Below, piece after piece: positions 2,938-64,000 of a stretch of 64,000 nucleotides of DNA. Position 1 is the first letter of the stretch; each line of letters opens with the position of its first letter. A model generated the notes under the pieces. The model searched no databases, had not been told where the DNA came from, and was given only the letters and a program-made list of their open reading frames with translations. The stretch comes from a virus: the IMG/VR virus record IMGVR_UViG_3300028920_000034, positions 89,115-153,114 of that record; one strand, given 5' to 3'. The translations under genes and the position numbers were made by a program.

Positions 2938-3005
2938 TTGGCACAAGATGTGCTTCTGCTTAATTAACCTTATCTCCCCTCTTAGAAGAGAAGAGTCTTG
3001 AGTGT
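2938..3005 (-). repeat. Copy 1 of a four-copy hairpin element
   Basis: Read on the minus strand this contains CAAGACTCTTCTCTTCT, then AAGAGGGGAGATAAGG, then TTAATTAAG and GTGCCAA near the end. The stem pairs CTCTT with AAGAG. It lies just after the stop of the gene at 3015-3284 and before the start at 2924. The other copies are at 14454-14525, 23459-23530 and 50931-51005. The hairpin bases differ between copies while pairing is kept. Confidence 0.8.
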
Positions 3006-3014
3006 CCCTGACGC

Positions 3015-4668: not shown

Positions 4669-6168
4669 CTACGGGGTGTTGTCCACCTCGAGGGCGCCGT
4701 AGAAGTTGCTGTTCATCAGCTTCGTGGCGTACCGGGTCCGGAGCCCCTTGCGCGCCTGGAAGTTGCCCGGATCCAGCCAGGTGCTGGTGATCTGGAGCCC
4801 CACGTAGGGGGCGTAGGCGTAACCGCTGTCGAGGAAGGTGCTCCCCTTGAGCCCGACCACAGCCTTGCCAGACTCGAAGTACGGATCCACGATCACGCGC
4901 CAGCGGTTCTGGAGCGTGCCGGCCTCGAAGATCCCGTAGCCCTGGGGGGCGTTCGGGAGCGGGAAGCCGGGGCGCCCGCCTGTGCCGATCCCCTGGATGG
5001 GGTCGGTCTGGGAGAACACGCCCTTGAAGTCGCCGTGGCGGCTCAGGGCCGAGATCACCGTGGACACGTCGGGCGCGCACACGATGAAGTTGCCCGGACC
5101 GCGCTTGGTGCGGGTGTGGATCTCCGTGGCGATCTTGTCCAGCTTGGTGAGGATCCCGGAGTAGTGCTCCACCGGGCTCCGGCCGGGGGGCACCGTCGCG
5201 TCGAAGGTCTCCTTGTTGGTGCCGGCGTCCGCCGCCACGTACAGGTCCTGGATGATCTCGCGGTCGATCTCCAGCCCGATCTCGCTGGCCAGGCCGCCCA
5301 CCAGCTCGGACTCAATGTCCAAGCCCAGCATGGCCCGCATGTCGTCGGCCGCCTCGGAGCTCCACAGCGCCTTGAGCTTCCGGCTCCACGCCTGGACGGG
5401 CTCGAGGGAGATCTCGACGTTCACCTCGGGCACGTTGGCCGACGCCGCCTCCATGGAGAACCAGTAGTTGGCGTAGATGGGGGTGAGGTTCTTCACGTTC
5501 GCGGAGAACGTGATGTTGAAGTCGCCGCTGGCGTAGGTGACCGTGGACGCGGCGCCCGTGTCACCGGCCAGGGTGCCGGATCCGTCCGCATCGTAGATCC
5601 GGAGCACGTTGTCGGACACGTCCACCGTGGTGAACTCGAGGCCCGCGCGGCCGAAGTTGTCCTTCGGCACCACCGGGAACCAGTCCAGGGTCCCGGTGTA
5701 GTTGGCCGTGGATCCGTCTCCGGTGTCCACCAGCTCGTGGTACACGCGCTCCGAGCTGTAGAACCGGTCGAAGTTTTGGATCATGTTCTGACCCGCGGTG
5801 ACCGATCCCTTGCTGGTGCCGTACTTGTACTCGAAGAAGAAGATCCCGCCGATGGGCGCGCTCATCGGCTGGACGCTCACCAGGCCGTTGGCGAACAGGC
5901 TCGCCCACACGCGGCGGACCAGCGGGAAGATGAACTTCACGTAGTCCGGCACGGCCGCCTTGGTGGTGGCCTCGCTGATGATCCCGGACTTCCGCACCTC
6001 GTCGCGGAGGTGGTTCATCTGGTTCTCGAAGAGGCGCGCCAGGTTGCGCCGATCCCAGTCCTCATCGATCCCGTCGAGGAGCCACGCCCACTTCTGCTTG
6101 AGGATCTCGTCCACCCGGTCCTGGCCTCCGAAGCCGCCCGGGGCCTTCACCATGTCTCTTGCCTGCAT
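4669..6168 (-). CDS. Major capsid protein, T4 gp23-like
   Basis: 499 residues, about the usual size for this HK97-fold family. The N-arm (about 21-66, KWAWLLDGIDE, LARLFENQ) ends in I-S-E|A at 64-67, matching the gp21-type site; T4 gp23 is cut after Glu65. VQPMSAP-x-G-G-IFFFE at 99-113 is the family signature. Residues 125-240 form an insertion domain (FDRFYSSERVYHE, DYxxG beta repeats). ELVGGLASEIGLEIDREI at about 285-302 is the conserved spine helix motif. The C-terminal part has YAPYVGLQ and DPGNFQARKGLRTRYA, also typical. Segments similar to 21-88, 98-115 and 128-240 recur in three small genes at 37-47 kb. Confidence 0.93.
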   Translation of the reverse strand: MQARDMVKAPGGFGGQDRVDEILKQKWAWLLDGIDEDWDRRNLARLFENQMNHLRDEVRKSGIISEATTKAAVPDYVKFIFPLVRRVWASLFANGLVSVQPMSAPIGGIFFFEYKYGTSKGSVTAGQNMIQNFDRFYSSERVYHELVDTGDGSTANYTGTLDWFPVVPKDNFGRAGLEFTTVDVSDNVLRIYDADGSGTLAGDTGAASTVTYASGDFNITFSANVKNLTPIYANYWFSMEAASANVPEVNVEISLEPVQAWSRKLKALWSSEAADDMRAMLGLDIESELVGGLASEIGLEIDREIIQDLYVAADAGTNKETFDATVPPGRSPVEHYSGILTKLDKIATEIHTRTKRGPGNFIVCAPDVSTVISALSRHGDFKGVFSQTDPIQGIGTGGRPGFPLPNAPQGYGIFEAGTLQNRWRVIVDPYFESGKAVVGLKGSTFLDSGYAYAPYVGLQITSTWLDPGNFQARKGLRTRYATKLMNSNFYGALEVDNTP

Positions 6169-14453: not shown

Positions 14454-14525
14454 AACCCTCAAGACTCTTCTCCTCTAACAGAGAGAGATAAGGTTAAGTA
14501 AGAAGAAGCAACAGCCGTGCCAAGT
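14454..14525 (+). repeat. Copy 2 of the hairpin element, opposite orientation
   Basis: Reads on the plus strand ACCCTCAAGACTCTTCT, then CCTCTAACAGAGAGAG, ATAAGGTTAAGTAAG, AAGAAGCAACAG and CCGTGCCAAG. The stem is CTCT-AAC-AGAG. It lies in the 78-bp gap between the stop at 14533 and the gene at 14152-14415, opposed to the gene direction. It shares CAAGACTCTTCT with copy 1 and the AACAGCCGTGCCAAG end with copy 4. Confidence 0.8.
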
Positions 14526-23458: not shown

Positions 23459-23530
23459 TTGGCACGCCTGTTGCTTCTTCTTAATTAACCTTATCTCTCC
23501 CTTTGGAGAGTAAGAGTCAAGAGGGTCTCC
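23459..23530 (-). repeat. Copy 3 of the hairpin element
   Basis: On the minus strand GGAGACCCTCTTGACTCTTA, then CTCTCC-AAA-GGGAGAG (stem), ATAAGGTTAATTAAG, AAGAAGCAACAG and GCGTGCCAA. It begins 7 bp after the stop at 23537. Two GATTTTTGGC motifs (about 23438-23448 and 23453-23463) lie just downstream. It shares 20 bases exactly with copy 4 at the hairpin-proximal end. Confidence 0.8.
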
Positions 23531-32552: not shown

Positions 32553-32707
32553 CAGCTCAACCTCCCTGGCGTCTGGCGCCCACTGTAGGTGCCCCGCCCG
32601 GGCTCCCTTCCCCCGGCCCGCCGCCGCCCCGCTTCGGGCTCCAGGGTAGGGTGTAGGCTACACCATGGCGATCCCCAGGGCAAGCCCCGACGCACCCGGC
32701 GAGCATC

Positions 32708-32751
32708 GCTCCCAGGCCCGTGATTTTCGTTCTTTCGTCAATGATTCCGTG
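32708..32751. repeat. 44-bp direct repeat, copy 1
   Basis: Starts GCTCCCAGGCCCGTGATTTT and ends AATGATTCCGTG. It matches 32869-32912 in 42 of 44 bases. The 365-bp interval 32553-32917 that holds both copies has no gene. A shorter related sequence (CAATGATTCTGTCA) lies between them at about 32836-32849. Confidence 0.75.
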
Positions 32752-32868
32752 ACCAGCTACCCCCGGTTCCGACCCCTCGAGGCCCCGGTGGCCCCCAGTG
32801 GCCCCCCTCGAGGCGCCCCGCTGCACCGAAAAACGCAATGATTCTGTCAGGCGCTCCCTGCCCCTGGC

Positions 32869-32912
32869 GCTCCCAGGCCCGTGATTTTCGTTCTTTCCTT
32901 AATGATTCCGTG
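32869..32912. repeat. 44-bp direct repeat, copy 2
   Basis: The second copy ends 5 bp before the stop codon of the gene at 32918. The two differences from copy 1 are in the T-rich centre (TTTCCTTAATG against TTTCGTCAATG). The copies lie in the same orientation 161 bp apart. They could be protein-binding sites for packaging or replication, or paired regulatory sites. Confidence 0.75.
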
Positions 32913-32917
32913 GAAGG

Positions 32918-33748
32918 CTACTCGGGCTCGTCATCACTGAACGCCACCAGCTCCCCGGCCAGGCTGGCCGCCGCTGCATCCTGGCTCCGCTGGCTGGTGA
33001 GGAACCGGTGGAGCACCCCGAGCACCTTGGTGCGCCGCCTGGGGTCCAGGAGGGCCTCCTGAACGTCCTGGCGCCCGGCGAAGCGCCCCTTGACTACCCC
33101 GGCCAGGCGCTCCTCGAGGGTGGCCCGCTGCTCCTCGGGGCCGCCCCCGAGTCCACCGAGGCGCTCGCGTAGGCCCCCGTGGACACGTAGGGTCTGGCGC
33201 ATCTCGCCCATGAGCTCCCGCACGTCCCGGAACGTCTTGGGCCTCACCCCTGGGTTGGTAGTCCCCACCTGGGTGGGCTCGGTGTCCCCGTCCAGGCCCC
33301 CCTCGCCCGGGCTGGGCAGCGCCACCTGGGGCGCGCCCCCGAGTTCCTCCGCGCCCACGGTGCCCGGGCTGGGCGCCACGCCGGTGGCCTCGCATAGCAG
33401 AGCCTTTTCAACGCGGTATAGCTCCCCGAGCTCCACCAGCTCCCCCAGGGCCGTCTCGAGGGCCGTGGCCGCGCGCACCTGCATGGCGCTCATCTGGGTG
33501 GGGTTCATCACCTCCGCGGGGGCGAGGGCCGCCTTGGCGTAGCGTGAGATCTCCTGGCGTAGCAGGTCGTGAGCCACGTCCCCAAGGAAGCCGTTGGCGT
33601 GGATCCGCCTCGCCACCTCCGCCGCCGGGTAACCCTCGCGGATCCACTCCACAATGTCCGGGAGGATCGGTAGCTGGCGGATCCGCTGTCCCGGCTCGGG
33701 GCCGCGCCGCCTCGGGGCCTCGTCCGCTCTGTCGCTGATGGTCACCAT
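32918..33748 (-). CDS. Possible small terminase-like DNA-binding protein
   Basis: 276 residues, ATG with GGAGG five bases upstream. Residues 25-75 contain a helix-turn-helix-like stretch (ILPDIVEWIREGYPAAEVAR, RIHANGFLGDVAHDLLRQEI) of the type found in small terminase subunits and phage regulators. Helices follow, then a Gly/Pro linker (about 130-175) and an arginine-rich helical C-terminus (RQTLRVHGGLRERLGG). Direct repeats flank it downstream and iteron-like repeats upstream, suiting a site-specific DNA-binding role. A transcription regulator is an alternative. Confidence 0.4.
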   Translation of the reverse strand: MVTISDRADEAPRRRGPEPGQRIRQLPILPDIVEWIREGYPAAEVARRIHANGFLGDVAHDLLRQEISRYAKAALAPAEVMNPTQMSAMQVRAATALETALGELVELGELYRVEKALLCEATGVAPSPGTVGAEELGGAPQVALPSPGEGGLDGDTEPTQVGTTNPGVRPKTFRDVRELMGEMRQTLRVHGGLRERLGGLGGGPEEQRATLEERLAGVVKGRFAGRQDVQEALLDPRRRTKVLGVLHRFLTSQRSQDAAAASLAGELVAFSDDEPE

Positions 33749-37274: not shown

Positions 37275-37676
37275 TCATCCCTTCATGTTCGGGTCTCGTC
37301 TCAGGCACTTGAGGCACTGATTCGTCATTGGATCTACCGACTTGACCGCATGACACCGGATGCAGTCCTCCCAGGCTTCTGGCTCCCCATGCTCGTAGAA
37401 GAACACGCCGTCCGCCGGGGCCGTCATCGGTTGGATGGTGAAGCACTCCCGGATGATCTTGCTGGTGGGGGACTCCCAGGTGGGGTCCGCCACGCTGTGG
37501 AGTGTCCCTTCGGCCCCACAGCTCGGACACTGCTGTCCGCCAGGCTCCCACCTGGCCACGGGTGGGTCTCCCTCCACCACGGCCGGATTGGCCAGGAAGC
37601 ACGCCCGGCACATGCCGTTCAAGGGCTTCCCTCGCATGGACTCGAGGAGCTCCTGGACTCGGTTGTCACGCTCCAT
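37275..37676 (-). CDS. Zinc-ribbon protein carrying an MCP-like segment (MCP 98-115)
   Basis: 133 residues. Residues 81-96, IQPMTAPADGVFFYEH, match the MCP signature VQPMSAPIGGIFFFEY (MCP 99-114). Four cysteine pairs surround the segment: CRAC (23-26), CPSC (50-53), CIRC (105-108) and CLKC (121-124). The QPM-[ST]-x-P-x-G pattern is a hallmark of gp23-type capsid proteins. It lies among overlapping small genes, far from the capsid operon. It could be a decoy for a host sensor, an assembly modulator, or debris of an MCP duplication. Confidence 0.65.
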   Translation of the reverse strand: MERDNRVQELLESMRGKPLNGMCRACFLANPAVVEGDPPVARWEPGGQQCPSCGAEGTLHSVADPTWESPTSKIIRECFTIQPMTAPADGVFFYEHGEPEAWEDCIRCHAVKSVDPMTNQCLKCLRRDPNMKG

Positions 37677-38109: not shown

Positions 38110-38447
38110 TAAACCGGCTCCCTTCCGGCTTCGCCCGCCATCGGGTCTGGCCACTTCTGGCTGCTCACGTGTCCGCAGTCATCGCACCTGGTGATCACCG
38201 TGCCACCCAGGTAGGCGTTCCCCTTGCGCTTGGGCATCGCCACCCCGGTGGTGGTGTTCTTGCTCCCGCACGCATCGCAGGAGACCGGCTCGCTGGCGCT
38301 GTAGGTGGGCTCCTGGGGTGGCTCCTGTTCGAACATCCGATTGCGCTCGTAGCACTCCCGGCAGACGGACAGGAGCCGCCCGGTGGTCTCGCCCTTCATC
38401 ACGGGGTTGTCGCAGTCCGTGAACGCGCACTTCGGTCGGTTGCTCAT
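38109..38447 (-). CDS. Double zinc-ribbon protein
   Basis: 112 residues. Pairs at C7/C12, CREC (about 29-32), CDAC (about 58-61) and CDDC (about 88-91) would form two ribbons. The second half has the order of TFIIS-like ribbons (NAYLGGTVITRCDDCGH). Overlaps the MCP-like gene upstream by ATGA. Confidence 0.55.
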   Translation of the reverse strand: MSNRPKCAFTDCDNPVMKGETTGRLLSVCRECYERNRMFEQEPPQEPTYSASEPVSCDACGSKNTTTGVAMPKRKGNAYLGGTVITRCDDCGHVSSQKWPDPMAGEAGREPV

Positions 38448-38902
38448 GGCAGCTCTCCCGGCGCCCCGCACCCGGGGCACCCGTTGACGTTGGGCAGGTA
38501 GGCGCGCCCGCAGTAGCCGCACGCCACGGCCGCCGGCCCGCGCTCGCCGGTCTCCTTGCCCATCGGCTCCACACCCACGGCCAGCATGTTCATGCAGTAG
38601 TCCGCCAGGAGCTGTGCCCCCGGGGCCGCGTTCTTGGCCAGCACCACGGACACCTGACCGCTCTGGTAGTCCACCGTACACCTGCCCCCGGCGTCCCCGT
38701 GGAGCTCGCCGTTGCCATCGGTGTCCTCGAGGCGCATCTTGCCGCGCTTACCCTTGATCGTGAGCACCAGCGTCTTGGGCACCACGGGCGTCCAGGTGAG
38801 CACCCCTTCCAGGTGAGCTTGCTTCTTGCCGGCTATGGCCACCGCCTCCTGGTAGACGTGCTCACTCGAGTAGTACCGGTCAAAAGACTGGATCAGGTTC
38901 AT
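38444..38902 (-). CDS. Stand-alone MCP insertion-domain homologue with C-terminal zinc ribbon
   Basis: 152 residues. Residues 3-107 align along their length with MCP residues 129-240: LIQSFDRYYSSEHVYQE against MIQNFDRFYSSERVYHE, then TWTPVVPK against DWFPVVPK, DTDGNGELHGD against DADGSGTLAGD, and YQSGQVSV against YASGDFNI. Residues 128-146 add CGYCGRAYLPNVNGCPGC, a ribbon absent from the MCP. The start overlaps its neighbour (ATGA). It is thus an isolated capsid domain expressed as a small protein. Options are a capsid decoration protein, an assembly regulator, or a decoy of the MCP. Confidence 0.8.
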   Translation of the reverse strand: MNLIQSFDRYYSSEHVYQEAVAIAGKKQAHLEGVLTWTPVVPKTLVLTIKGKRGKMRLEDTDGNGELHGDAGGRCTVDYQSGQVSVVLAKNAAPGAQLLADYCMNMLAVGVEPMGKETGERGPAAVACGYCGRAYLPNVNGCPGCGAPGELP

Positions 38903-46911: not shown

Positions 46912-47095
46912 GGGGCTTGCCCTCCTCAATCATCCGGATCACCCGCGCCAGCCGAGCCACTGCCCGGTCGAAAGCCATGGGCTCCGCCAGCCGCTCGCGG
47001 TCCACCTGGAGCCCCCACGCCTTGAGGGCCCGCGGAATGCTCTCCTTGAGCCGCTCCTCACGCTCCTGGGCTGTTGGCATCCGCTCAACTCGCAT
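46904..47095 (-). CDS. Small helical basic protein
   Basis: 63 residues if the ATG at 47095 is used; a second ATG at 47080, four bases after the upstream stop, is also possible. Arginine-rich helices (REERLKESIPRALKAWGLQV; DRAVARLARVIRMIEEG). Function unknown. Confidence 0.5.
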   Translation of the reverse strand: MRVERMPTAQEREERLKESIPRALKAWGLQVDRERLAEPMAFDRAVARLARVIRMIEEGKPHE

Positions 47096-47507
47096 CAGGA
47101 AACACCTTGTGGACAAGCGGGAAAATGAACTTGGTGTACTTCTCCACGTCGTCTGGATCGATACCTTTGCGAGCATGATCCTTGACCGATTCCTTGAGCC
47201 TCCTGGATTCAAGCTCAAATAGCCTGGCCAAGATAAGCGCCCTGTCGTCCACTCCCTCCACCATCCATGCCCACTTTTTCAGCGTATTCTCGGGCGATCC
47301 ATAGTTGTCTCTGCATACCTCACAGTCGGGATCATTGCAGATCGGGAGCAAGCTCATGTGAAGATCCGACAACGCACAGCACGCATCGCAGTCTTCGTTG
47401 CCAACCTCTATCCCGTCTTCCACGTAACAGGTGTGCTTGAGCCTGGCTTCAATGCCGCGCCTGATCTCAGCAAACCTGACTTCATCGTAGCTGCTCGGGT
47501 GACTCAT
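47085..47507 (-). CDS. MCP N-arm homologue fused to cysteine-rich N-terminus
   Basis: 140 residues. Residues 77-134 match MCP 26-86: KKWAWMVEGVDD with LARLFELE against QKWAWLLDGIDE with LARLFENQ, then YTKFIFPLVHKVF against YVKFIFPLVRRVW. The gp21-type cleavage site of the MCP (I-S-E|A) is replaced by GIDPDDVE, so the arm should not be processed. Residues 1-70 carry cysteines (CYVE, CDACC, CNDPDCEVC), probably zinc-binding. The segment corresponds to the MCP propeptide and the first part of the mature protein. Confidence 0.75.
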   Translation of the reverse strand: MSHPSSYDEVRFAEIRRGIEARLKHTCYVEDGIEVGNEDCDACCALSDLHMSLLPICNDPDCEVCRDNYGSPENTLKKWAWMVEGVDDRALILARLFELESRRLKESVKDHARKGIDPDDVEKYTKFIFPLVHKVFPDAS

Positions 47508-50930: not shown

Positions 50931-51005
50931 CGGAGACCCTCTTGACTCTTATTCCCCTACAGAGGGAGATAAGGTTAATTAAGAAGAAGCAACAGCCGTG
51001 CCAAG
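50931..51005 (+). repeat. Copy 4 of the hairpin element, opposite orientation
   Basis: Plus strand GGAGACCCTCTTGACTCTTA, then CCCT-ACAG-AGGG (stem), AGATAAGGTTAATTAAG, AAGAAGCAACAG and CCGTGCCAAG. It fills the gap between the stop at 51006 and the ATG at 50930. The left end forms that gene's ribosome-binding region (AGAGGG in the RNA). Confidence 0.8.
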
Positions 51006-51218
51006 TCAGTGCGCGCTGTCATAGGGCACGCTGTCATGGGCCGCCTGGTACGTCCGGCACCAGTCGAGCACCTCGTCTTCGGCCACCGGCCAGGAGACCC
51101 CACAGCAATTCCACCAGATGCTGCACCCCTCGAGGGCATCGTTCATGTCCTCGTTCCGGTCGCATGTGGCGCGAGCTCGCTGTGGAGCTCTCCCGCACCG
51201 CCAACAGGTCGCACTCAT
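51006..51218 (-). CDS. Small zinc-binding protein
   Basis: 70 residues. CWRCGRAP at 5-12, then C33 and WWNCCGVSW at about 36-44 form a zinc site. The C-terminus is acidic. The ATG at 51218 follows the upstream stop by 7 bp. Confidence 0.5.
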   Translation of the reverse strand: MSATCWRCGRAPQRARATCDRNEDMNDALEGCSIWWNCCGVSWPVAEDEVLDWCRTYQAAHDSVPYDSAH

Positions 51219-54520: not shown

Positions 54521-55725
54521 CAGAACGTCGGCAAAGCCCCGCCAAGCCGGGGACGGGGGTGCCCACACTCCTCCTTGCGGAACTGAATGCTGGCCTCCTC
54601 CACCTCGAAGGGGTTGCCATGGGCGATGTACGCCACGTCTGTCACCAGAGTGAGGTGGAGCTGCCCGTTGCCGGTCCGGAGCCGTTCGATGTTGGCCTTG
54701 GCGCCCCAGTACCAGGACGCGGGGCCACCGTTCTCGCGCCGGAGCTCCGCGCACACCGGGCGCTCCTCTTGGATCGCCCTGTCCAGCATGGCGCCCACGT
54801 CGGGAAGGTTCTCGCTGTCACGCGCCGCCACGGTCACGGCCACATGGTCGGGCTTTCCGTCCAGGCCCACCCGGTACTCCACCTTGGCCAGCGCCGGGCT
54901 CCACGCAAAGGGACCCACCTGGAACCGCCAGTTGCGCTTCACATCCTCCGCCGCAACCGTCGCAGCCCAGCCGCCCTTGATCCCGCGCACGTCCGCCACG
55001 GGGTTGAGGGCCGTAATGAATTCGGGACGGTCCACCCGCTTCATGTACTTCTGATCCAGGTCCGCTCCCACCAGATCCTTTGGAATGCCCAACGCGCCCA
55101 CCAGCTCACGGTCCAGATCGCGCGCCACCTGGCCCGCCATAGCGTCCATGATGGTCTTCTCTGCCGAGCCGCCGAACACATCGGTGAACTCCTCGAAGGA
55201 TTCGATCAGCCGTGCCCCCGGCCGGGTGAAGCTGCCGCGCTTGTTCTTGGCTTCCGCACGGAGCTTGAGCTCGCGTTCGATCTGGTCCTTGAAGCGGTCC
55301 AGATGCTCGGGCGCGATCACCTCGCGTTCGATGGCCTGGCGCACCATCTTGTCCACCGCACGCTCGAAGGCGTCCACCAGATCGATCACCATGGGCGCCG
55401 GCACCACGATGGTGTCCGCGGTCACACCTGGCGCCCCGCGGCGCTTGTCACCGTCCAGCTCGCTGGCAATGGTCCCCAGGCACCACTTGTCCCCGATGCC
55501 CAGGTAGTCGTCCAGGTTGATGATGTTGGATAGCACCCGCGTGGGCATCCGCACCGTGTTGTTGTAGTACCCCTGGTTATGGTACTTGCGCTGGGCGTGT
55601 TTGTACGCCTCCTTTGCGATCTTCGCCTTGTGGCGCGCATCGTCCATATCCCACCCGGCCGCCTCCATGGCGTCCAGCACCTGGACCGCCCTGTGAAGCA
55701 CACTCTCTTCGTGTTTTCCGCTCAT
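54520..55725 (-). CDS. Large hypothetical protein with weak MCP-like helix
   Basis: 401 residues. Helical N-terminus and centre, a beta-rich C-terminal half (RNWRFQVGPFAWSPALAKVE; HVAVTVAARDSENLPD). AMAGQVARDLDRELVGALGI at about 195 resembles the MCP spine GLASEIGLEIDREIIQDL (only a local match). No family recognised. It may be another protein borrowing an MCP motif, or the match may be chance. ATGA overlap with its neighbour. Confidence 0.5.
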   Translation of the reverse strand: MSGKHEESVLHRAVQVLDAMEAAGWDMDDARHKAKIAKEAYKHAQRKYHNQGYYNNTVRMPTRVLSNIINLDDYLGIGDKWCLGTIASELDGDKRRGAPGVTADTIVVPAPMVIDLVDAFERAVDKMVRQAIEREVIAPEHLDRFKDQIERELKLRAEAKNKRGSFTRPGARLIESFEEFTDVFGGSAEKTIMDAMAGQVARDLDRELVGALGIPKDLVGADLDQKYMKRVDRPEFITALNPVADVRGIKGGWAATVAAEDVKRNWRFQVGPFAWSPALAKVEYRVGLDGKPDHVAVTVAARDSENLPDVGAMLDRAIQEERPVCAELRRENGGPASWYWGAKANIERLRTGNGQLHLTLVTDVAYIAHGNPFEVEEASIQFRKEECGHPRPRLGGALPTF

Positions 55726-57420: not shown

Positions 57421-57687
57421 TCACGTCACACCTCGCCCAGCCCACAACACGAAGCGGAGGCGCCCCTCTGTACGCGCCTGGAGCTCGTGAAACTGGGTTT
57501 TCGATAGATGGATCCCGCCGTACCCGCACCCCTCCTCGCCCGACCAGAACACGCAGTAGTAGCCGCTGGTCTCCGGCATGTAGTTGTACCGCACCAGATC
57601 GATCACCGGGTGCTCCTCGAGGAGCCGCAGTACATCCTCCACGCACATCAGCCGCAAGTAGCCGTTGGAGGTTCGCTTGGTAGTCAT
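57421..57687 (-). CDS. Hypothetical protein
   Basis: 88 residues. Helix (VEDVLRLLEEHPVIDLVRYN), then beta strands (GYYCVFWSGEEGCGYGGIHL) and a helix. A compact alpha/beta protein. No family recognised. Confidence 0.5.
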   Translation of the reverse strand: MTTKRTSNGYLRLMCVEDVLRLLEEHPVIDLVRYNYMPETSGYYCVFWSGEEGCGYGGIHLSKTQFHELQARTEGRLRFVLWAGRGVT

Positions 57688-57699
57688 GCCGAGATTGTA

Positions 57700-58053
57700 T
57701 CACCAGCGCCCCCCGCGGTATTGCACCTCTGGACCCCAGCACGCGCGGTCCTCCCAGAGCTTGTCATCGGGGTGTAAGTGGGCCTTGGAGTCCACGATAG
57801 TGATCTGCACGTTGCCGTCCGGTGGCGTCCCCAGCACAGGGTGAGGCACCAGGCCATCGATCTGGAACGTGTACCGCTCCAAGATCTTGCCCGGGTCACC
57901 ACCGATCTCCTCCGCCAGGTGCAACAGAATCTGCCGCAGACCAGCTTGCAGGTGCCCCTCGGTGGCCTTCGTGGCCGGGTGTCCCTCCTGTACCCATCGC
58001 TCGAGTCCGGCCATCACCCGTCGCTCGAATTCCTGTGCTATCCAGGCGTGCAT
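57700..58053 (-). CDS. Hypothetical alpha/beta protein
   Basis: 117 residues. Helices (AQEFERRVMAGLERWVQEGH; HLQAGLRQILLHLAEEIGGD), then strands (ERYTFQIDGLVPHP; NVQITIVDSKAHLHPDDKLW). The TAATG overlap with the previous gene supports the start. No family recognised. Confidence 0.5.
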   Translation of the reverse strand: MHAWIAQEFERRVMAGLERWVQEGHPATKATEGHLQAGLRQILLHLAEEIGGDPGKILERYTFQIDGLVPHPVLGTPPDGNVQITIVDSKAHLHPDDKLWEDRACWGPEVQYRGGRW

Positions 58054-58616
58054 TACCCGGCCCTCCTCGCCGCCTTGATCTTCGCCAGGTAGCCCTGGCA
58101 GATCGTCGCCAGGAGCTCCCCGTGGAACTCCTCGCCCACCTCGCGCTTGGCCTTGTTCATCGCCCTGGTGAGCACCCGCCGCTGGCGTCCATCCATCCAG
58201 AATGCCACCGTCTTGGGCGCCGCCTCCACAGGCTCCCCGTAGACGCGAGCTCGCAGCTCCGCCACGGTGTGCTCCCGCGCCCACCGCAACCAATGGTCCG
58301 CACCCTCACGATGCGGCCCCATCCGGGCCAGGAGCACCGCCTTGCACCGCCCTAGCCGAGCCAGGGTCTCGCGCTGGGCCTTCAGGAGCCGCTGGTCACT
58401 GGCCCACCTGGCGATGGCCATCAGCTCGTAGGTGACCCCGGCCGTGAGGCCCACCTCGTTCTCCGCATAGTCCGCCCAGGTGTCCCAACCCCACTCATAG
58501 TGGAACTGGCCACCGCGGATCGCCAGGAGCACCTCCCCGAGCCGCATCAGCTCACCGTGGGCATTGCCGGCCAGGCTTCTCACCAGCCGTCTCAGATCAG
58601 CTTTCGTCTGTTCCAT
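58053..58616 (-). CDS. Helical DNA-binding-like protein
   Basis: 187 residues from ATG 58616, which has GGGAG upstream. Residues 40-90 (WGWDTWADYAENEVGLTAGV, TYELMAIARWASDQRL) have a helix-turn-helix pattern seen in phage and plasmid proteins of the 'W-x-x-Y-x-x-E-x-G-L/L-s' type. The rest is arginine-rich and helical. Possibly a regulator. Confidence 0.5.
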   Translation of the reverse strand: MEQTKADLRRLVRSLAGNAHGELMRLGEVLLAIRGGQFHYEWGWDTWADYAENEVGLTAGVTYELMAIARWASDQRLLKAQRETLARLGRCKAVLLARMGPHREGADHWLRWAREHTVAELRARVYGEPVEAAPKTVAFWMDGRQRRVLTRAMNKAKREVGEEFHGELLATICQGYLAKIKAARRAG

Positions 58617-63766: not shown

Positions 63767-63979
63767 CTAGCGGTCCTCCGGTGATCTAGTGTCCCGCGCC
63801 CCGAGGTGGTGGTCAACGGTAACCGTGAATACCCTACCCTCACGGTCCCGCACCTCCATCCCAGCCGGAAGAACCACATCGCCATCCTGGATCACCGGCT
63901 CCCGCTGGCGAAGCCAGTAGCACAGGTGGACCACCAGGCCGCCCAGCACCATACCGATGAACAGGCACGCCACGCTCAC
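63767..63979 (-). CDS. Membrane-anchored small protein, GTG start
   Basis: 70 residues from GTG 63979 (GAGGA seven bases upstream). One transmembrane segment (ACLFIGMVLGGLVVHLCYWL), then a beta-type domain (DVVLPAGMEVRDREGRVFTV). It is co-transcribed with the terminase. Bases 63980-64000 belong to the end of another gene or a short leader and cannot be assigned. Confidence 0.5.
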   Translation of the reverse strand: MSVACLFIGMVLGGLVVHLCYWLRQREPVIQDGDVVLPAGMEVRDREGRVFTVTVDHHLGARDTRSPEDR

Positions 63980-64000
63980 ATGCCCATCCTCATCGCCGCA

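Follow-up and report, generated by a model that had tools for sequence, protein, structure and literature searches.

Major capsid proteins (MCPs) are described as triggers of several anti-phage systems, including Lit and CapRel (PMC9712102). In the account given for Lit, the 29-residue Gol region of T4 gp23 binds domains II and III of EF-Tu and lets Lit cleave EF-Tu; the same report describes this region as the most conserved part of gp23 (PMC3014915). For CapRel-SJ46, the zinc-finger-like domain is described as binding both the MCP and a 66-aa phage protein, namely Gp54 (PMC9712102, PMC11578894). A search of the open-licence literature found no phage that uses pieces of its capsid protein as a countermeasure.

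Here we describe three small cysteine-rich genes, A, B and C, in the IMG/VR virus record IMGVR_UViG_3300028920_000034. Genes A and C have captured different segments of a T4-type MCP, and gene B likely carries a third. All coordinates refer to the window, i.e., the 64,000-nucleotide stretch that was analysed (positions 89,115 to 153,114 of the record), unless another record is named. The first and last 147 bases of the record match at 99.3% (window 63854-64000 is the end), and thus the 153-kb sequence may represent a nearly complete, circularly permuted genome. The window also contains AT-rich dispersed repeats of about 70 bp in both orientations (TTGGCAC...TTAATTAACCTTATCTC...; 2938-3006, 14455-14525, 23459-23527 and 50936-51006), which are possibly promoters or other control elements, and two 54-nt direct repeats that are 89% identical and 161 bp apart (32707-32760 and 32868-32921).

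Gene B and its resemblance to the capsid protein

Gene B (37275..37676, minus strand) encodes 133 aa from an ATG start, with AGGAGG immediately upstream, and combines an MCP-like linker with four CxxC pairs, namely CRAC, CPSC, CIRC and CLKC. The reading frame and the four-pair cysteine layout claimed in an earlier note on this DNA are thus confirmed, on the minus strand, and so is the position given there for the MCP motif: in the gene B sequence, IQPMTAPADGVFFYEH is found between CPSC and CIRC. The simplest arrangement of the pairs suggests two separate ribbons, both recognised by their sequence pattern and putatively zinc-binding. The probable first ribbon, CRAC...CPSC, spans residues 23-53 (37518..37610, minus strand), and the probable second, CIRC...CLKC, spans residues 105-124 (37305..37364, minus strand). 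With this pairing, the motif would lie in the linker between the ribbons and not within the loop of either one. Comparison with the Pfam zinc-ribbon families gave only matches below cut-off for A, B and C, though CxxC pairs are present.

The earlier note had further proposed that a zinc scaffold presents the motif as a loop, with structure prediction as the check. The AF2 model of gene B is poor (mean pLDDT 52), with residues 82-97 the worst among the inner stretches, and it lends no support to a scaffold-presented loop. What stands of this proposal is that the motif is flanked by probable ribbons; the displayed loop is neither shown nor excluded by the model, and the sequence favours a linker.

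The source family of the captured segments is represented in the window by the phage's own T4-type MCP of the Gp23 family (4669..6168, minus strand; 499 aa), which matches Pfam Gp23 (PF07068) with an E-value of 4.6e-69 and the PHROG major head protein with 9.9e-70. Its residues 96-114 read LVSVQPMSAPIGGIFFFEY. This MCP carries VQPMSAPIGGIFFFEY, and a similar segment was found in gene B, in agreement with the conserved MCP stretch that the earlier note had recognised there. The segment comprises residues 79-96 of B (FTIQPMTAPADGVFFYEH; 37389..37442, minus strand), equivalent to MCP 96/97-114, and the match to the own MCP is 17-19 aa long. It was recovered in a blastp search of every stop-to-stop frame in the window (47% over 19 aa, E 0.02), in a profile search with nine MCPs that covered all 2699 frames in the 153,114-base record (11.4 bits, E 0.0085), and in a comparison of 47 small Cys-rich frames with every frame of that record (E 0.013). 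The best domain score in 60 residue-shuffled copies of all frames was 9.3. In a sister phage, the equivalent protein scores 14.5 bits (E 2.7e-4; MCP profile, 40 kb searched). Gene B retains the Q, P, M, P, G, F and E of the MCP stretch, is altered at G107 and Y114, both invariant in seven MCPs, and shows no preference for the own MCP over other MCPs. Because B exceeds all 60 shuffles but has E-values of 0.0085-0.02, its match, taken alone, makes chance unlikely and is suggestive, short of conclusive.

Genes A and C carry further capsid segments

Gene A (47085..47507, minus strand; 140 aa) has a Cys-rich N-terminus, with CDACC and CEVC within residues 27-65 (47313..47429, minus strand), followed by residues 77-136 (47100..47279, minus strand), which are homologous to MCP 25-88, i.e., the propeptide/N-arm region. 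Its similarity to the own MCP is 41% over 68 aa (E 2e-8; profile E 1e-5, 2699 frames). Gene C (38444..38902, minus strand; 152 aa), whose start ATG overlaps the upstream stop (ATGA), has the reverse layout. Its residues 1-108 (38579..38902, minus strand) are homologous to the MCP beta-insert domain and flank, i.e., MCP 128-241 (38% over 114 aa, E 4e-20; profile E 9e-21, 2699 frames), and the C-terminal Cys pairs form a probable zinc ribbon, CGYC...CPGC, at residues 128-145 (38468..38521, minus strand). Similarity at the level of an MCP-derived segment is thus evident for A and C and borderline for B. Membership in Gp23 (PF07068) applies to the MCP reading frame and not to A, B or C, none of which has a PF07068 hit; these genes hold fragments and are not MCPs. 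We also considered whether gene C carries a generic phage beta domain. This was rejected, as its match to the MCP (5e-20) compares with 0.001 or weaker for the genome's other beta-domain proteins. The MCP beta-insert domain also occurs in other, probably structural, proteins of the same phage, at positions 54536-55570, 57439-58428 and 78427-80634 of the whole record.

The MCP pieces in A, B and C, namely 25-88, 96-114 and 128-241, do not overlap. A profile of MCP 242-499 searched against all frames of the 153-kb record found the MCP alone, the next frame having an E-value of 5.3. If three such pieces are placed uniformly, the probability of non-overlap is 0.35, which is weak evidence alone, and the post hoc probability of non-overlapping pieces that also all lie in the first half is 0.002. 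All three genes belong to the frames with at least two CxxC pairs, which make up 28 of the 338 minus-strand frames of 100-300 aa. In the comparison of the 47 small Cys-rich frames with every frame of the record, strong matches were confined to A and C, both against the MCP; a few further matches had E-values of 0.017-0.049. The minus strand at about 34500-60500 contains many small genes with two or more CxxC pairs, and the whole record has 36 minus-strand Cys-rich frames of up to 300 aa. The earlier note's description of B as a grafted MCP epitope agrees with the MCP signature, but it overlooked two further Cys-rich genes. Since the pattern covers most of MCP residues 25-241 across three genes, a grafted epitope is an understatement. 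Such repeated capture of one structural gene's pieces by one gene class would be unusual even without a decoy role.

Alignment to T4 gp23 places the B motif at QPM 115-117, and gene A ends in a stretch aligned to ...MVRRAIPN of gp23. If the Gol limits are residues 93/94-122, as we take them to be, the beginning of the matching stretch would fall in A and its end in B. With these assumed limits, each of the two genes aligns to only a part of the 29-residue region.

The origins of the pieces appear to differ. In a tree of MCPs (loci L050 and L062, with no usable MCP reading frame, were excluded), the gene C segment clusters with this phage's MCP (UFBoot 90) and its branch is long, at 1.30 substitutions per site; gene C has a GC content of 0.68, which is the native composition. 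The gene A segment has no supported placement: it joins a distant MCP at UFBoot 51, although in pairwise comparison it scores best against the own MCP. The GC content of gene A is low (0.53). Gene B has too few residues for placement. Because C is of native composition and falls with the own MCP lineage, whereas A is of low GC and does not, the two probably have separate origins, with capture more than once. The same contrast weakens a candidate explanation in which A, B and C are remnants of one broken MCP paralogue. In the related phage record G005, a 79-aa basic protein without cysteines matches MCP 56-93 (E 8e-4; 13.9 bits, compared with a best of 6.2 in 20,000 shuffles). At least one further small phage protein thus contains an MCP N-terminal piece. 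This protein adjoins tail-tube-like frames (L091 1477-1713; G005:20195-20305 region).

Relatives and the sister phage

Gene B has relatives at one locus in IMG/VR, in the sister phage, and none were found there for A and C. A DNA pattern for QPMxxP with two downstream CxxC pairs, written with the CAG codon only and hence not exhaustive, matched 34 stretches in IMG/VR. Of these, 33, for the most part ordinary MCPs, lack CxxC in the frame that encodes QPM, and one is the sister's B. Among the 120 matches listed in a tighter motif scan, 119 are in an MCP-type context without CxxC in the QPM frame, and the remaining one is again the sister's B; a further DNA pattern of QPM with CxxC gave, among at least 120 matches, two short in-frame matches and no B-like protein. 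The earlier note regarded a wide distribution of QPMTxP motifs in unrelated zinc proteins as evidence against its reading. By the CAG-codon pattern, zinc proteins with a QPM-type motif are not widespread in IMG/VR. In INPHARED, tblastn with B gave five weak rows at chance level (E 2 or worse), A had no match, and C gave three rows, of which the one significant row is an ordinary Streptococcus phage MCP (4e-5). The genome contigs contained no relatives of A and B, and 18 related records, mostly short fragments, contained no A-, B- or C-like gene; in these 18 records the A1 profile found MCPs, beta-domain proteins and one 79-aa frame only. PADLOC gave no hit for A, B or C.

The sister phage, IMGVR_UViG_3300029258_001212 (153,540 bases), is about 90% identical; its MCP is 99% identical and its B 95% identical. 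The two copies of B differ by 19 synonymous and 6 nonsynonymous codon changes, and 5 of the 6 nonsynonymous changes fall within residues 81-101. Judged from these changes, B is overall under purifying selection. B is therefore maintained as a coding gene, with weaker constraint on the motif linker than on the Cys parts. The sister phage lacks both A and C. The differences are clean single-gene indels, with the flanking genes adjacent and ATGA stop/start overlaps at the junctions; with one sister phage found, they represent either gain or loss.

Possible roles of the captured segments

Our favoured but tentative reading, which we hold with considerable doubt, is that A, B and C are Cys-rich accessory proteins whose captured MCP segments act as partial mimics or decoys toward an MCP-sensing host factor. 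In such a mechanism, the captured segment would engage a factor whose usual ligand is nascent MCP, with the zinc ribbons stabilising the fusion or supplying a second contact. The most probable partner would come from the host and sense or bind newly made MCP, i.e., a sensor of the EF-Tu/Lit type or the CapRel type, which the decoys would occupy without triggering it. The presence of A and C in only one of the two sisters, their accessory location and the fast divergence of C fit a decoy role without proving it. Against it, A and C contain much besides the Gol-like region, which none of the three genes has in full; furthermore, the motif linker of B is less constrained than the Cys parts, and A and C have no relatives in IMG/VR. 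The more specific version, in which zinc-stabilised mimics were repeatedly cut from the MCP, cover most of residues 25-241 including both sides of Gol, and together form a decoy set against host MCP sensing, we regard as unlikely.

The main rival is head assembly, because the segment limits lie near those of predicted MCP modules. MCP segments would here dock zinc-ribbon proteins on proheads or MCP intermediates, and the proteins would be packaged, tune assembly or block competitors' capsids; we consider this somewhat unlikely. The structure model of the MCP, which is mostly of low confidence (mean pLDDT 50, useful mainly at 141-237), has helices at 14-93, a stretch without predicted structure to 127, a helix at 128-133 and a confident beta domain at 141-237, and is poor elsewhere. 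By our presumed HK97-fold assignment, A corresponds to the propeptide/N-arm helices, B to the strand entering the E-loop region and C to the insert domain. The cysteine-free G005 protein is also consistent with a function in the head, as it indicates that N-arm pieces recur in small phage proteins. Conversely, A, B and C belong to a region of small accessory genes and are separated from the head genes by 31-41 kb; the sister phage does without A and C; and the I-S-E-A stretch of the MCP, which resembles what we take to be the site motif of the T4 prohead protease, has no counterpart in A in the alignment.

Alternatively, the MCP fragments could be relics, joined to zinc-ribbon genes by illegitimate recombination and devoid of any capsid-related function, such that the zinc parts alone matter. 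The clean ATGA junctions would suit a chance exchange of cassettes, and both the faster change of B's motif region and the high divergence of gene C point the same way. This explanation is nonetheless quite improbable, considering that one gene class made two or three captures from one gene, that the pieces are confined to the first half of the MCP without overlap (again P 0.002 under uniform placement, post hoc), that the MCP alone, among all frames in the record, is strongly matched by Cys-rich frames, and that the C frame stays open across 108 diverged MCP-like residues. It is very unlikely, lastly, that only A and C are MCP-derived and that the 17-residue resemblance in B is due to chance or convergence. 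The E-values of just 0.0085-0.02, the lack of preference for the own MCP and the changes at G107 and Y114 would be expected if it were; however, B matches the most diagnostic stretch of the MCP with seven characteristic residues kept, exceeds every shuffle, scores better in the sister copy, and belongs to the same gene class in which A and C show that MCP pieces occur.

If A, B and C do bind partners of the MCP, they could serve as probes of the capsid-protein region that a sensor recognises, and the capture of partial genes by zinc-ribbon carriers would constitute a new route of counter-defence. MCP duplication is known in T4-like phages, where the vertex protein gp24 is a paralogue of gp23; gp24 is, however, a structural paralogue of full length, unlike the fragments joined to Cys pairs here. 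The prophage protein Tab, the tail assembly blocker, is described as stopping invading phages from assembling virions, but its target is the tail, and a capsid-derived sequence is not part of the description considered here (PMC10884400). Competitive mimicry against defence would be common to A, B and C and to Ocr, Dmd and pseudo-ToxI, which, as described, mimic DNA, an antitoxin protein or an antitoxin RNA and not the phage's own capsid protein (PMC10286901). CapRel-SJ46 offers a possible likeness, in that a zinc-finger-like domain binds the MCP at a site overlapping that of a small phage protein; in the reported system, though, this domain is in the host sensor, and Gp54 activates it and does not block it (PMC9712102, PMC11578894). 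The Gol region of T4 gp23 lies within a full capsid protein, whereas here the pieces reside in separate small Cys-rich proteins, none with the full stretch; the likeness is that the region is conserved, and that both the motif of B and the end of A align within the corresponding stretch of gp23.
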